Assembly (NCBI GenBank): GCA_949499105.1
Contig: CATEFX010000005.1
Span: 1 to 62,615, forward strand
Direction: 5' to 3'
Source: Formosa sp. Hel1_33_131
Lineage (GTDB): Bacteria; Bacteroidota; Bacteroidia; Flavobacteriales; Flavobacteriaceae
Length of the DNA stretch: 62,615 nucleotides
This document shows positions 1 to 14,850 of this stretch, in pieces (the stretch's first letter is position 1; each line of letters begins with the position of its first letter). The notes under the pieces were generated by a model. That model was not told where the DNA came from. It saw only the letters and a list, made by a program, of their open reading frames with translations, and ran no database searches. The position numbers and the translations under genes are program-made.

Positions 1-551
1 ACTTGAGCGGTTGAATGTCGTTTTTTTTCAACCAGCGTATCCCGGCCATTTTCTAAAAATACGGGGTTGAAATAAGTCCCTTGCCCCCCCCAATTTATCA
101 TCACTTTCGAATAATCAAACCCAGTAGGGATTGTCCCTAAGTGCCATTTACCAATCACAGCGGTTTGGTAACCCGATTTTTGAAATAATTTTGGAAAGGT
201 CATTTGACTCCCATCAAAATCGCCCCCTTTTTCATTTTTAAAAAAACCATTAATATGATTGTATTTCCCAGTTAGAATCGCAGAGCGACTTGGACCACAA
301 ATTGAATTGGTGTTAAAGGTTCTTGTCATCAGCATTCCTTCATTGGCGATCCGATCAATATTGGGAGTTGGGGCAACGTCTGCTAGCCAATCTTGATAGG
401 CACTAATCGCACTCACGGCATGGTCATCGGCCATTATAAAAACAATATTGGGTTGTTTTGGTGCCGTTTTAGATTTTGAATTTGAATGACAAGACACAAT
501 ACAAATACTCAATAAAGCGATGCTTGAAGTTTTAAGATTAAAATAATTCAT
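1..551 (-). CDS. Sulfatase (S1 family), lipoprotein, 3' end beyond window
   Basis: This is the N-terminal 183 residues of a formylglycine-dependent sulfatase that hydrolyses sulfate esters, probably on a polysaccharide. The ATG at 549-551 opens a lipoprotein signal with a lipobox ending at Cys21, so the enzyme is probably anchored in the outer membrane or periplasm. The metal-binding Asp-Asp pair follows PNIVFIM at about residues 41-42. The CGPSR motif carries Cys85, the residue converted to formylglycine, and GKWHLG supplies further active-site residues. The gene lies 63 bases downstream of the sulfatase-GH10 gene on the same strand, so the two are probably co-transcribed. The exact S1 subfamily and substrate cannot be assigned because the C-terminal half is outside the window. 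Confidence 0.93.
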
Positions 552-614: not shown

Positions 615-3197
615 TTATTGTTTAGATTTATTTAAGGCTTTTTTAATAACTTCATATGCAGGCGTCGGATTTAGATCCGCATCATATATGGAATGGAAAG
701 TCTTTCGCGTGCCCATATCCCATAAGTTTAGTCCAACAACTCCTGTGGATGTTTTGGATTCTAATATGGTAATTATTTTTGAATAGATTTCTGCTTGTTT
801 GAGGCGTTCAGATTTTAAATCTGATTTTTTAGTGATTCTATAATCTAGTTCTGTGATATGAAACTCTAACTCATTGGCATGAGCCCAATCGATTAAATCA
901 GAAAGCGATTCTAAAAAAGTTGCTAAATCTCTAGCAAAATCTGTAGAAGCATTATTTAGTTTCAAATGGCCTTGCCAACCAACGGCATCCACTCGATACC
1001 CTTTAGATCGAACATATAAAATAGTCTCTTTGACTTTGTCCCACATTTTAGTTTGCATCCCGCCATGGTGGTTATATACTAATTTTTTATTGGTCGCATA
1101 CTTTGTTGCTATTTCAAATGCTTTTGTAATATATTTAGGGAATCCATTTTCATCAAATCCGATATTTACCCAAGGATTTTCCCATTTTTTTGTACCTTCT
1201 CTAGCCCCAAACCATTCGCCACTAGGGACGATAGTTTCATTGACAACATCGATCCATTTCACTACAGGTTCTTTATTGAATCGCTTGGCGAAGGCAGTCG
1301 CAAATTCTATCATTAGTGATTCTAATTCCTCTGCGGTTCGATGGTCTTCTTTAGCCCAAGGCGACGCTTGAGGACTAATTGGGCCATGAAGTCTTACATC
1401 CAAATTATGTCGTTTGGCAAAATCAATGAACATATCCGTTCGTTTCCAATTCCAGACGCCTGGCTTTGAGTGTACAATTGCTTGTTTGGCGCCATTGGAT
1501 GGCGTTAGATACTTGAAGTCTTTCAAAAATAATTCTCCTTTTTCAGAGTCGAGCTCTTTATATCCAAGAGTTGCTCCAATAATTAATTTATTTTTTTGAG
1601 CCGTTTTAGAAGTCGGAGTGGCTGAGCTTGTTTTGGATTTTTTTTGTTGAGAATTAAAATACGATGCTGCTAGTTTTTGAAAACGTTGTTTAAGTTTCGT
1701 ATGAGCTTCATCGTCTATTCTATTATAAGTTTCGAGAGGGTCAGAGACATAGTCATACAGTTCCTCGGCAAAAACATCCTTTTTAAAAATAGGATCTGTG
1801 CTTTTCTTATCGGTTATCCAAACTGTATAACGATACTGCTCTGTGCGAAAACTATAACCAGATTTATGACCGCTATGCCATTGACTTACAGCATATGATT
1901 TTGGAGATATATTTTGGCCTTCAACCAATGAATTTAAGCTTTGGCCATCTAAATTTTCTGGTATCCTTAAATTAGCAGCTTCACAAAGAGTCGGAAAGAT
2001 ATCTACAAACTCGGTAGGCGATGTCACTTTTACTGCTTTTTTAATTTTTGGATTATAGATGATCAGTGGAGACCGTGTGGCTTGTTCAAAATTAGAATGT
2101 TTACACCATAAACTATGATCCCCTAAATGCCAGCCATGATCGCCCCAAACGACAATAATTGTATTTTTATCGAGTCCAGTTTCTTTTAGAGTTGTAAGTA
2201 TTTTTCCGAGTTGAGTATCTATATAACTCGTACAAGCATAGTACCCATGAATTAATTTTTTTTGAAAGTCTTCATCTAACTTCAAAAGTTTATCATCGCT
2301 GATGGTATATTCAGAATCAAGTGTTTTGTAGGACCGCATTTCCCCAGAAGAATGATACGCTATATCCGGACCATGGGTCGATTTTTTTTGATACTTGGCT
2401 AAATCAATAGCATTTCGATTGTATTGATCCCAATACTTTTGAGGAGCAGTGAATGGTAAGTGGGGTCGTTTAAATCCAACCGCTAAAAAGAACGGAGTTG
2501 ATTGATCTTTACTTAGATCTTGTAGCAACAGCTTCGCTTTCTCAGCGATTGCACCATCAACATAAGCTTCATCAGGCACATCGGCGCTTCCAAAAGGCGG
2601 CTTGTATTGGTTTCTGACATGTTTATTTATATTTTTTTTTCCTTTAGCTTTGGCCTCTGCTCGTAATAAACGAATCTGATTTTTGATCGCTTTGTTTTGA
2701 TAATACCCAAAAACGGGTGCACCATACGTTTTGGAATACTCCAGTTCACCTTCTTTAATAAATGGCACTGACCAAGAAGGCTTATCACGGTCATCATCCA
2801 CACAACGAGGATCGTAAATTTTACCAATTCCGACAGTGTGATACCCATTATTTTTAAAATATTCGGGAATTGTTAAAATGTCCGGGTTGATCGCTCGCAT
2901 TTTAGTTTTAAGGTCTCTAACTTTGGTATAGTCAGGTCTTTTACCGGTCATCAAACTCGCTCTAGAAGGTCCGCAAACTGCTTGTTGGGTGTGATTATTT
3001 AAAAAAACAGTAGCTTCACTTGAGAGGGCATCCATCACTGGGGTTTGGGCAAAGGAATCTCCAAAACTACCAATAGTAGGTTTTAAGTCGTCTATAGCAA
3101 TAAAAAGGATATTCGGATGTTGCTCGTTGATTTGAGCATCAGAAGTAATCGAAATCACACAAAACAAAGAATAAAGAATTATAACTTTGATTTTCAT
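615..3197 (-). CDS. Sulfatase (iduronate-2-sulfatase-like) fused to GH10 endo-xylanase-like domain
   Basis: An 860-residue secreted protein with two catalytic domains. A signal peptide covers about residues 1-22. The sulfatase domain spans about 27-510 and has the Asp36-Asp37 metal ligands, CGPSR with Cys75 (formylglycine site), RPH at 244-246 and a GDHGWH block at 352-357, resembling iduronate-2-sulfatase-type S1 enzymes. A Ser/Thr/Lys-rich linker at about 515-536 leads to a GH10 domain at about 537-856. There VVNE gives the acid/base Glu654 and ITELD the nucleophile Glu783, with a WDMG aromatic block at 826-829. Single-domain members of either family are about half this length. Such a protein could remove sulfate and cut a beta-1,4-xylan-like backbone, but the substrate is inferred. 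No T9SS sorting domain is visible at the C terminus. The next gene downstream is another sulfatase. Confidence 0.93.
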   Translation of the reverse strand: MKIKVIILYSLFCVISITSDAQINEQHPNILFIAIDDLKPTIGSFGDSFAQTPVMDALSSEATVFLNNHTQQAVCGPSRASLMTGKRPDYTKVRDLKTKMRAINPDILTIPEYFKNNGYHTVGIGKIYDPRCVDDDRDKPSWSVPFIKEGELEYSKTYGAPVFGYYQNKAIKNQIRLLRAEAKAKGKKNINKHVRNQYKPPFGSADVPDEAYVDGAIAEKAKLLLQDLSKDQSTPFFLAVGFKRPHLPFTAPQKYWDQYNRNAIDLAKYQKKSTHGPDIAYHSSGEMRSYKTLDSEYTISDDKLLKLDEDFQKKLIHGYYACTSYIDTQLGKILTTLKETGLDKNTIIVVWGDHGWHLGDHSLWCKHSNFEQATRSPLIIYNPKIKKAVKVTSPTEFVDIFPTLCEAANLRIPENLDGQSLNSLVEGQNISPKSYAVSQWHSGHKSGYSFRTEQYRYTVWITDKKSTDPIFKKDVFAEELYDYVSDPLETYNRIDDEAHTKLKQRFQKLAASYFNSQQKKSKTSSATPTSKTAQKNKLIIGATLGYKELDSEKGELFLKDFKYLTPSNGAKQAIVHSKPGVWNWKRTDMFIDFAKRHNLDVRLHGPISPQASPWAKEDHRTAEELESLMIEFATAFAKRFNKEPVVKWIDVVNETIVPSGEWFGAREGTKKWENPWVNIGFDENGFPKYITKAFEIATKYATNKKLVYNHHGGMQTKMWDKVKETILYVRSKGYRVDAVGWQGHLKLNNASTDFARDLATFLESLSDLIDWAHANELEFHITELDYRITKKSDLKSERLKQAEIYSKIITILESKTSTGVVGLNLWDMGTRKTFHSIYDADLNPTPAYEVIKKALNKSKQ

Positions 3198-3283: not shown

Positions 3284-3523
3284 TTAAGAAAACGCAACCA
3301 ATTGTCCCCTATTTGGCTTAAGAGAAGACTTAATAAGTTCTAAATTATTTTTATCAATCACTGCATATGTATAATGGTGAAACTCACTAACGACTTCAAC
3401 TCCAGAGCGGATTAATTCTAGTTTTTCCAATTCAAAAAATTCTATTAAATGGATTTTAAAATGTGCTGCGGTACGACTGCAAGCCGGCCCTCTAAAATCC
3501 CAAATAAGTTTAATTTTTTCCAT
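3284..3523 (-). CDS. Conserved-looking hypothetical protein, 79 aa
   Basis: I do not recognise this family. The reading frame extends further upstream into the lysE gene, but the ATG at 3521-3523 is preferred because it falls 8 bases after the lysE stop and gives a compact 79-residue protein. The product has no signal peptide or membrane helix. It contains a GPAC motif near residue 12 and two histidines in a row in the middle, and looks like a small mixed alpha/beta cytoplasmic protein. It sits on the same strand directly after lysE and is probably the last gene of a pyrD-lysE-orf79 transcript. Confidence 0.72.
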   Translation of the reverse strand: MEKIKLIWDFRGPACSRTAAHFKIHLIEFFELEKLELIRSGVEVVSEFHHYTYAVIDKNNLELIKSSLKPNRGQLVAFS

Positions 3524-3531
3524 ATGATAAT

Positions 3532-4155
3532 TTAATTTATGAATAGGATAAAAAATGCAATCCCTAGAAATATTAAAATTTGAGCCCATTTAATAACAAA
3601 TTCAAATGTGGGGTTCGTTTTTAAAATGGATGAAACCGAGCTAGAGAAAAAAACAAGCATCGAAAAAATCATAAATGACGTTAGCATAAACAAAAACCCA
3701 AGTGTGTAAAATTGAAGTACCAAGGACAGCGATTGGCTATATAAAAATGCTGGAAAAAAGGCCATGAAAAATATAGAAACTTTTGGATTAATTACGTTCA
3801 TAATAAACCCTTGTTTAAATAACGCCCATAACGATTTGCTTTTAACAGCCTGTATATCTGTATTTAAAACTTTTGTCGATTTGTAGGCTCCATATGCTAA
3901 ATAGAGCATATATCCCACTCCAAATAACTTTAGAACCAACAGCAGTTCTGCCTTAGATTTTATAAATGACGAAAGACCAAACGCGACCAAAGTCGTATGA
4001 ACTAGGCATCCAGAAATCAGCCCACACACAATTGCTATGCCTTGTTTTTTGCCATAAGTTATAGTCTGAATAAGCACAAACATCGTATCAGGACCTGGAG
4101 CGATTGCCAAAGTGGCTGTAGCGATTATAAATGAAATTAAGATCTCTAAATCCAA
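3532..4155 (-). CDS. LysE/RhtB-family amino-acid exporter
   Basis: A 207-residue inner-membrane protein of the LysE/RhtB translocator family, which exports amino acids or related metabolites. It has about six hydrophobic segments and the family signature APGPDT at about residues 19-24, followed by a glycine-rich second helix. No ATG is available: an in-frame stop lies 12 bases upstream and the next Met is inside the signature. The TTG at 4153-4155 is therefore taken as start. It begins 5 bases after the pyrD stop codon, which suggests translational coupling. The exported compound is not predictable from sequence. Confidence 0.88.
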   Translation of the reverse strand: MDLEILISFIIATATLAIAPGPDTMFVLIQTITYGKKQGIAIVCGLISGCLVHTTLVAFGLSSFIKSKAELLLVLKLFGVGYMLYLAYGAYKSTKVLNTDIQAVKSKSLWALFKQGFIMNVINPKVSIFFMAFFPAFLYSQSLSLVLQFYTLGFLFMLTSFMIFSMLVFFSSSVSSILKTNPTFEFVIKWAQILIFLGIAFFILFIN

Positions 4156-12913: not shown

Positions 12914-14850
12914 TCTTGCACTTTGATAATGTATAAATCTTCATGTTTAAGAATAAACCCCGCTTCATTTTTATAACCGCCATAGGGTTGAAGAACGTAC
13001 TGAAATTTGTTTTCTATATAAGCCGATTGAACATCGGAAGTTTGTGAATATAAGGTCCCAAATTTAGAAAGTCGTAGTAAAACATCCATGGTAAGATCGA
13101 AGCCTCTGATAGCATATTTGGTTGGAAAAATTCCAAATTGTTTTAAATAAAGTGAACCAAAAGAGTCTAAGTTTTGGGAGTCAAAATTAACAGAAGGAAA
13201 CTGGAAATTAAGATTCGATAAATCATAATTTGATATATTCACGCCTTCAAATGCGCGATTCTTAAAAGTGGTCATCAACGTAATATCACGTTCAATTTTA
13301 GTGTCTGTAACCCCTTTAGTTGCTTTAACAACAGAGACTCCGTTCATTGCATTTAGCATGCTGGTTACATTAGATACAAACCCTTCGTTACTAGTTTCTA
13401 AAAACACAAAGGTTCTACCTTCTCCTAAGACAGCTTCAACATCTTTTAACATTAAATAAAACTGTTCTTCACCATATTTGTTTTTGTTGGGCGTTAAAAG
13501 CGTCGCCGAGGGAAATGCTGACTTTAAATGGTTTGCTTTATCGGAGTTTTTGGAGTCATATATAATAAGTGTTTCATGAAGAATCGTGTCTTTTTTGACA
13601 AAGTTGATCATTTTATTTTGTAACCATATTTCTTCTGGGATGGTTTGGAATAAGTTAGAATATACTTTTTTGGACTTCACAAAAGGGGATACTACAGGCA
13701 CCTTTTTGGCTTTCATAAATTGTGCGGTTAGTTCTAAATTTTGAAGCGTAATCGGTCCTAAAACAACATCGTATTTGGAGAAATTTGTTTGCCTCAATAT
13801 TGAATTTAGATCAAGAGTTTTGGCATTGGTATCATAGACATCTAATTTGGTTGAAATACCAAGACGTTTGGCAGAATCAATGGCCATCACAACCCCAGAA
13901 TAAAAATCGGTAGAAATGTTAATATACCCGTCTTTTTTAAGTTGATTTTTTGCGAGTTTAAGAGAATCAAAATCAATACTTTTGGTTTTGAACGGCAATA
14001 AAAGAGCGATGTTTTTGGGGGAAAAATCGACTAAATTGTTCGCTAATTTAGTAATAGGGATGGCTGTTGTTACCAAAAATTGAACACTCTTTTTTGGTAC
14101 CTTTAAGACCATTCCTGACTTTAACCCTTTATCAACAAGTTGTGGATTAAGAGCCTCCAGACGTGCTTTGGTTAATCCTAATTTTATTTTAAGTCTAAAA
14201 AAACCTTCTTTGGCCTGTACTTCGTAATAACCAAATTGATCTTCTTCTATCGTTTTTATATCAGAAATAGAAATATTTGGGACGTTCAGCTGCTGACCTT
14301 CGGAGAGGTACGACCCCATGTTTGGATTGAGTGCTTCTAACTCAGGGACTGAAATTCCAAATTTATAGGCAATTCGCCAAATACCTTCTTTTGGTAAAAC
14401 TGTATATGTTTTGATTGAGTATATTGAAGCGGGGACTTGGACCACTTTATATATCGGAATGTAGATCTTATTTCCCGACCTTAACTTCTTTGAATACAAA
14501 CGTTTATTGTGCGATTTTATATCCTCTACGGTCAAATTAAATTTTTGAGCTATTCCATATAAGGTTTCTTTTCGTTTGACTTTACAAACCTTATATGAAC
14601 TCAATTCTTTAATTTCTTCAACAGAACTTGATTTAAGTGTTAAAGAATCTGGAATAATTAAAATCATATTCACAGAAAAATTAGACTTCACATCTGGATT
14701 TAAAGCATAAATATCTGCGGGCATAATTTTGTATACCCTAGCGATACTTTCTACAGACTCGCCTACGTTGACACGATGTGTTTTTAAGTTTTGAGCGAAG
14801 CCGAAACCACTAAAAACAAAAAACAACGAAATAATTAAAAAATTTTTCAT
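12910..14850 (-). CDS. LysM repeats fused to periplasmic-binding-protein-like receptor domain
   Basis: A 646-residue exported protein. A signal peptide covers about 1-19. Four LysM-type repeats follow at about 25-67, 86-131, 147-190 and 208-252, each with an xVxxGExxxxIAxxY-like core; these bind peptidoglycan or chitin-like glycans. The region from about 275 to the end has the layout of a type 1 periplasmic binding protein (KNIALLLPFK start, DVVLGPITLQN and KVPVVSPF), similar to amino-acid ABC receptor domains. No transporter genes lie nearby, so the receptor domain probably acts alone. It may help sense or organise the cell wall. guaA lies upstream on the same strand. Confidence 0.9.
   Translation of the reverse strand: MKNFLIISLFFVFSGFGFAQNLKTHRVNVGESVESIARVYKIMPADIYALNPDVKSNFSVNMILIIPDSLTLKSSSVEEIKELSSYKVCKVKRKETLYGIAQKFNLTVEDIKSHNKRLYSKKLRSGNKIYIPIYKVVQVPASIYSIKTYTVLPKEGIWRIAYKFGISVPELEALNPNMGSYLSEGQQLNVPNISISDIKTIEEDQFGYYEVQAKEGFFRLKIKLGLTKARLEALNPQLVDKGLKSGMVLKVPKKSVQFLVTTAIPITKLANNLVDFSPKNIALLLPFKTKSIDFDSLKLAKNQLKKDGYINISTDFYSGVVMAIDSAKRLGISTKLDVYDTNAKTLDLNSILRQTNFSKYDVVLGPITLQNLELTAQFMKAKKVPVVSPFVKSKKVYSNLFQTIPEEIWLQNKMINFVKKDTILHETLIIYDSKNSDKANHLKSAFPSATLLTPNKNKYGEEQFYLMLKDVEAVLGEGRTFVFLETSNEGFVSNVTSMLNAMNGVSVVKATKGVTDTKIERDITLMTTFKNRAFEGVNISNYDLSNLNFQFPSVNFDSQNLDSFGSLYLKQFGIFPTKYAIRGFDLTMDVLLRLSKFGTLYSQTSDVQSAYIENKFQYVLQPYGGYKNEAGFILKHEDLYIIKVQD

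Follow-up and report, generated by a model that had tools for sequence, protein, structure and literature searches.

Krüger et al. (2019; PMC6794258) named a "sulfatase domain-containing GH10" in predicted sulfated-xylan PULs of Formosa, Aurantivirga, and Polaribacter MAGs from bloom Flavobacteriia, and a predicted sulfated beta-xylan locus has been described in Formosa sp. Hel3_A1_48 (Kappelmann et al., PMC6298971). The first-pass annotation of the DNA studied here had taken a sulfatase-GH10 architecture to be undescribed, a view overturned by the former paper. It had also allowed that the architecture might prove common and characterised already, and on this the record is divided: the fusion has been in print since 2019, but no characterised S1-GH10 fusion was found among the open-licence matches listed (titles and abstract starts), where PMC6794258 was the only phrase match for sulfatase-GH10 fusions. 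Among solved structures, the sulfatase half is closest to P18_S1_7 of Formosa agariphila (6HHM), an endo-2-sulfo-D-xylose sulfatase of the ulvan pathway (PMC9096561, PMC8511951), whose solved chain lacks a GH10 domain and has a His where the fusion has Asp129. Another protein of F. agariphila, P36, likewise joins desulfation to glycosidic cleavage in one polypeptide, but it couples an S1_25 sulfatase to a GH78 rhamnosidase and thus differs in sulfatase subfamily, glycosidase, and sugar (rhamnose) (PMC8511951). For the GH10 half, CbXyn10B (4L4O, 4PMD) and similar xylanases share the fold, the catalytic Glu pair, and near-complete profile coverage, but the identity is 23-24%, and the fusion has HGPISPQASPW where canonical members have the HTLVWH wall.

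The protein described in this study carries the same two domains in one polypeptide as the pattern-1 PUL of Krüger et al. (2019; PMC6794258), and it comes from the same kinds of bacteria. The GH3 and two further sulfatases of the published pattern are also present in the loci of two relatives of the same genus (G312 and G314), whereas in the own genome a single neighbouring sulfatase is seen up to the contig end and no close GH3 orthologue was found, the best match (39%) lying on another contig. The available text of that paper gives the architecture and the predicted substrate, without domain trees or active-site analysis.

The window, 62,615 nucleotides of Formosa sp. Hel1_33_131, makes up all of contig C5; the genome measures 2.1 Mb and is 86.6% complete. 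The fusion gene (615..3197) is a single ORF of 860 amino acids, recognised by Pfam and homologues; the first-pass annotation gave no strand for it, and we read it, with all features placed below, on the minus strand. The domains follow in the order signal peptide, sulfatase, flexible linker, and GH10. The signal peptide (residues ~1-22; 3132..3197) was read by eye from the translation, lacks a lipobox, and corresponds to a helix at residues 2-23 of the AlphaFold model. Matches above the curated Pfam cut-offs were obtained for Sulfatase (residues 28-409, 141.1 bits), SGSH_C (residues 359-508, 47.9 bits), and Glyco_hydro_10 (residues 533-853, 132.9 bits, profile positions 6-310 of 311). Cys75, Glu654, and Glu783 are found where the first-pass annotation had placed them and are invariant in 28 of 28 aligned fused proteins (the window protein counted in). 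Both halves look complete, as had been claimed. The model of the whole protein (mean pLDDT 85.9, pTM 0.59, alignment of 28 sequences) has two well-formed domains joined by a linker (residues ~516-532; 1602..1652) with pLDDT below 50 at residues 520-535, so that the mutual orientation of the domains is not fixed by the model. The protein is likely exported, and it has no Pfam match to a type-9 tail. A signal peptide in a Bacteroidota protein that has neither lipobox nor type-9 tail suggests the periplasm, which is most likely where the fusion protein resides; at such a site GH10 would act on imported oligosaccharides. Between the fusion gene and a LysE-type gene lies a 101-aa ORF (3284-3589) with no Pfam match; of the eight ORFs of the window put through the same scan, four encode RNA polymerase subunits, EF-Tu, and RF3.

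A joining error between two genes might be suspected, in view of the fact that the window is an entire contig of a fragmented genome and that the neighbouring sulfatase is broken there, but the recurrence of the fusion in independent assemblies leaves this explanation with practically no probability. Full-length homologues occur in 4 further genomes of the 299 family genomes (53-62% identity; 5/299 with the own genome, which is within the 299) and in 5 of 17 other genomes of the genus (64-79% identity; 6/18 with the own). Two more genomes of the genus hold fragments, that of G313 fused and that of G311 N-terminal. In a scan of named genomes, from which the best 80 of at least 542 relatives were retained, both halves lie in one ORF in 45 of the 80 loci by our own thresholds, and two of these come from isolates, Lutibacter agarilyticus and Lutibacter sp. 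HS1-25. The 45 overlap in part with the assemblies behind the family and genus counts, and two of the 80 loci (L062 and L070) share one contig. Farther afield, the only genome with a match at E up to 1e-150 in a class-wide sample of 395 was the own genome, a phylum-wide sample, also of 395 genomes, contained four, counting the own, that matched the GH10 half by itself with E no higher than 1e-40, and of 602 plasmid records that gave a match, none covers 80% of the protein at a single place. Two open frames of 929 aa (G132) and 938 aa (G151) were rejected as further fusions, being separate neighbouring genes once the stops in these stretches are shown. Three Flammeovirga loci fell below the GH10 threshold used for counting; one of them encodes a protein of 920 aa with S1 and GH10 domains (L126:9932-12694; GH10 at 80.7 bits, with a canonical-looking HALVW), which is perhaps a separate fusion, and two others (L128, L131) resemble it in length.

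The sulfatase domain (residues ~25-515; 1653..3125) is a type I (S1) sulfatase by its Pfam Sulfatase match and its C-x-P-S-R motif (CGPSR), in which the Cys75 codon (2973..2975) marks the predicted formylglycine site. Residues D36, D37, C75, R79, K126, H246, D353, H354, and K366, which we take to be the catalytic and metal-site residues, are invariant in 28 of 28 aligned fused proteins. By both sequence (261.8 bits) and fold (TMt 0.89, 33% identity) the nearest solved relative is 6HHM, titled S1_7, and iduronate-2-sulfatase is also among the nearest. The His of the GK-x-x-H motif, presumably a mark of the 6HHM/iduronate-2-sulfatase group, is absent from the window protein, and Asp129 (2811..2813) stands there instead, in a stretch (residues 129-141) modelled with pLDDT below 50.

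The GH10 domain (residues 533-853; 639..1601) matches PF00331 over most of the profile and has the catalytic pair, with Glu654 in VVNET (1236..1238) as predicted acid/base and Glu783 in TELD (849..851) as predicted nucleophile. It is the sole GH10 match in its genome. All 35 aligned GH10 sequences (24 fused, 11 unfused; members chosen from those gathered) share both Glu residues as well as the Gln742/His744 pair. The domain is modelled with a pLDDT of 91.3, and almost every one of the 50 fold matches listed bears a GH10 or xylanase title (two are designed proteins), with TM values to xylanases of 0.71-0.78 by query at 18-26% identity. The motif HGPISPQASPW (residues 604-614; 1356..1388), however, replaces the canonical HTLVWH, as seen in the canonical GH10 of a Polaribacter locus (L099); the consensus of the GH10 halves is HGPISPQxSxW, or more loosely HxPxxPQxSxW, with H604, P606, P609, Q610, S612, and W614 invariant in fused and unfused members alike (35/35). 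The first-pass description of this half as xylanase-like holds for the fold, the profile, and the Glu pair, but because the subsite wall is unlike that of canonical GH10, the half may not be an ordinary beta-1,4-xylanase.

The left edge of the window cuts a second sulfatase gene, S1b (3..551), of which the N-terminal 183 aa remain, identified by ORF and Pfam and with a lipobox-like N-terminus by eye. The adjacent sulfatase invoked by the first-pass annotation in favour of a sulfated-glycan locus is thus real, though incomplete. A full-length relative of 537 aa (L058) has the GlcNAc-6-sulfatase 5G2V as its nearest match. The C-terminal 315 aa occur in two similar copies, at C20:34732-35676 and C21:1-945 (92% and 90% to the L058 protein), that is, the rest of an S1b gene opens contig C21 and another copy closes contig C20, and duplication of the gene is the probable cause of the assembly break at the left edge of the window. 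After S1b, C21 carries an esterase, a CBM protein with a type-9 tail, HTCS, SusC, SusD, DUF1800, DUF1501, and XylE (720.6 bits against a cut-off of 608), and the genome has four FGE-family places above cut-off. A SusC/SusD pair, which the first-pass annotation advised seeking leftward of the fusion, is thus present outside the window, which starts at base 1 of its contig; the pair may belong with the fusion, but C20 is an equal candidate for the neighbour of C5.

In the same-genus G312, a 17.8-kb contig has the order FGE, GH5 with a type-9 tail, fusion, GH3, a pair of sulfatases, esterase, HTCS, and the first part of SusC; Pfam identified GH5 and GH3, and the remaining genes were recognised by N-terminal likeness to scanned genes. 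In G314, about 42 kb of one contig hold xylose isomerase (661 bits), an FGGY kinase, GH43, a canonical GH10, a Pel9A-like protein with a CBM, an esterase, GH3, the fusion, GH5, and FGE, interspersed with SusC, SusD, HTCS, and several sulfatases (by N-terminus). In the Polaribacter locus L099, the S1-X and GH10 genes (X being a stretch of about 115 aa) are accompanied by xylose isomerase, GH43, and a canonical GH10. A third sulfatase of relatives (in L061) is again nearest to 6HHM. Xylose isomerase was not found in the own genome (86.6% complete); it occurs in 5 of 18 genomes of the genus, 4 of the 8 with the fusion or a fragment and 1 of the 10 without, numbers too small to weigh. A DUF1800-DUF1501 gene pair (L151:13112-15699; likely relatives in L180, L181, and L182) is found close to xylose genes: to XylE in the own genome, and to xylose isomerase in relatives, where the pair was recognised by N-terminus.

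The two halves occur in several arrangements. The extra X stretch stands between them in S1-X-GH10 proteins of 945-994 aa (L100, L104, L109-L112), whereas in four Polaribacter loci (L098, L099, L101, L103) S1-X is followed by a separate GH10 gene just downstream; the stretch, after the sulfatase domain and before GH10 or at the protein end, was also seen in L053, L054, and L113, and no Pfam match was obtained for it in the four scanned (L100, L109, L098, L053). An S1-GH10-CBM_4_9 form of about 1025 aa is found in L094-L096 (Pfam on L094 only), and unfused S1 and GH10 pairs lie within larger sulfatase-rich loci (L043, L045-L050, L052). In L051, from G071, the unfused GH10 gene (12961-14061) is broken into frames of 135 and 213 aa.

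The careful GH10 tree comprised 62 of 69 rows, 42 of them fused (including L143, a contig-cut fused fragment), after the removal of two canonical rows with branch lengths of 10, the divergent L071_10, and four near-identical rows; its starred branches force six changes between the fused and unfused states. The quick S1 tree (92 of 105 rows, 13 near copies or partial rows being omitted) has 42 rows labelled fused and seven such changes, with the three Flammeovirga rows labelled unfused although L126 carries a GH10 domain. Both sets leave aside ten loci that repeat genomes already present. A single clade of all fused GH10 rows was rejected (p-AU 3e-55), as was a common clade for eight GH10 halves taken from proteins with S1 domains of one group (p-AU 1e-8), both constrained groups having been named after the trees were seen. 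The proteins of L070 and L071 have the S1 half of one group and the GH10 half of the other, for which partner exchange would be the simplest reading; in L071, two further GH10 genes adjoin the fusion. As judged from these trees, several gains or losses of the fusion, indistinguishable by counts, and at least one exchange of a GH10 half appear to be needed. In each tree the window protein falls within a starred set made up solely of fused members (13 rows for GH10, 12 for S1). We put forward tentatively, as a possibility, that the GH10 halves form a specificity subgroup of their own for sulfated or freshly desulfated xylan, fused to an Asp-type S1 in a repeatedly assembled desulfate-and-cut unit whose halves are exchanged between lineages.

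The explanation that we favour, and hold to be somewhat probable, is that a sulfated-xylan utilisation locus here encodes a two-domain enzyme, exported and most likely periplasmic, whose S1 domain desulfates D-xylose before GH10 cuts. The S1 domain would be matured at Cys75 by a formylglycine-generating enzyme, and the SusC/SusD pair would import oligosaccharides from whose D-xylose residues S1 may remove sulfate, most likely 2-O-sulfate; the tethered GH10 could then cut the bared beta-1,4-linked backbone by a retaining mechanism with Glu654 as acid/base and Glu783 as nucleophile, and other enzymes would reduce the pieces to D-xylose for uptake. The substrate, the position of the sulfate, the order of the steps, and the cell location are all things that we infer. 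Sulfated xylan is the best guess because 6HHM is listed as a D-xylose-2-sulfatase and relatives carry GH43, GH3, canonical GH10, and xylose isomerase. S1_7, however, also includes the galactose-4-sulfatase cgsB, in the same table as 6HHM (PMC9096561), so that the subfamily does not fix the substrate and the step to xylose is not tight. Of the sulfated beta-1,4-xylan-like substrate proposed in the first-pass annotation, the part that stands is a locus for a sulfated, xylose-rich glycan, supported by the likeness to 6HHM and the xylose genes of relatives. Points against our explanation are the own genome, without xylose isomerase and a close GH3, as well as Asp129, the remodelled GH10 wall, and the presumed linkage of C5 to C21.

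The same residues bear on the other readings of the protein. If GH10 cut the still-sulfated or substituted xylan before the sulfatase acted on the products, the remodelled wall might accommodate the sulfate, and the six positions conserved in all 35 fused and unfused sequences, in place of HTLVWH, would agree with this; yet the wall may serve another substituent or sugar, and a 2-sulfate in the -1 subsite is expected to clash with the nucleophile and the Asn contacts, and we regard this order of steps as rather unlikely. Less likely still is a substrate other than a xylan, such as ulvan or a different heteropolymer containing sulfated xylose, in which S1 would desulfate internal Xyl2S and GH10 would cut beside xylose in a mixed chain. 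The activity of 6HHM on ulvan (PMC9096561) and the departure of the GH10 wall from canonical xylanases are in its favour, but no ulvan polysaccharide-lyase family, GH78, or GH105 was found among the 29 locus proteins scanned, a subset of the ORFs of the loci, and relatives carry genes for canonical GH10, GH43, xylose isomerase, and FGGY kinase.

That the sulfatase half is non-catalytic and acts as a binding module for a sulfated glycan appears very improbable. Such a role could be read from Asp129, which replaces the His of 6HHM and iduronate-2-sulfatase in 46 of 46 rows labelled fused, but of the 59 rows labelled unfused, 42 have Asp as well and 17 have His, which makes the Asp a trait of the wider clade, and it could itself serve as base; moreover, all 28 aligned fused proteins retain Cys75, the metal ligands, the Lys, and the second His. 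In a tally separate from that of the Asp, the Cys motif is found in 95 of 105 S1 rows and Ser in 3, with 7 giving no pattern match.

The fusion belongs to an already published and apparently untested kind of protein, and what is added here to the published pattern is the GH10 motif, Asp129, and the fusion history. Sulfated xylans are predicted to be among the main glycans feeding Bacteroidetes in spring blooms (PMC6794258, PMC6298971). The fusion protein offers a compact test case for the existence of the predicted substrate, the position of its sulfate, and the need for desulfation before cleavage, with concrete residues for such tests in the altered GH10 wall and at Asp129, where His is replaced.
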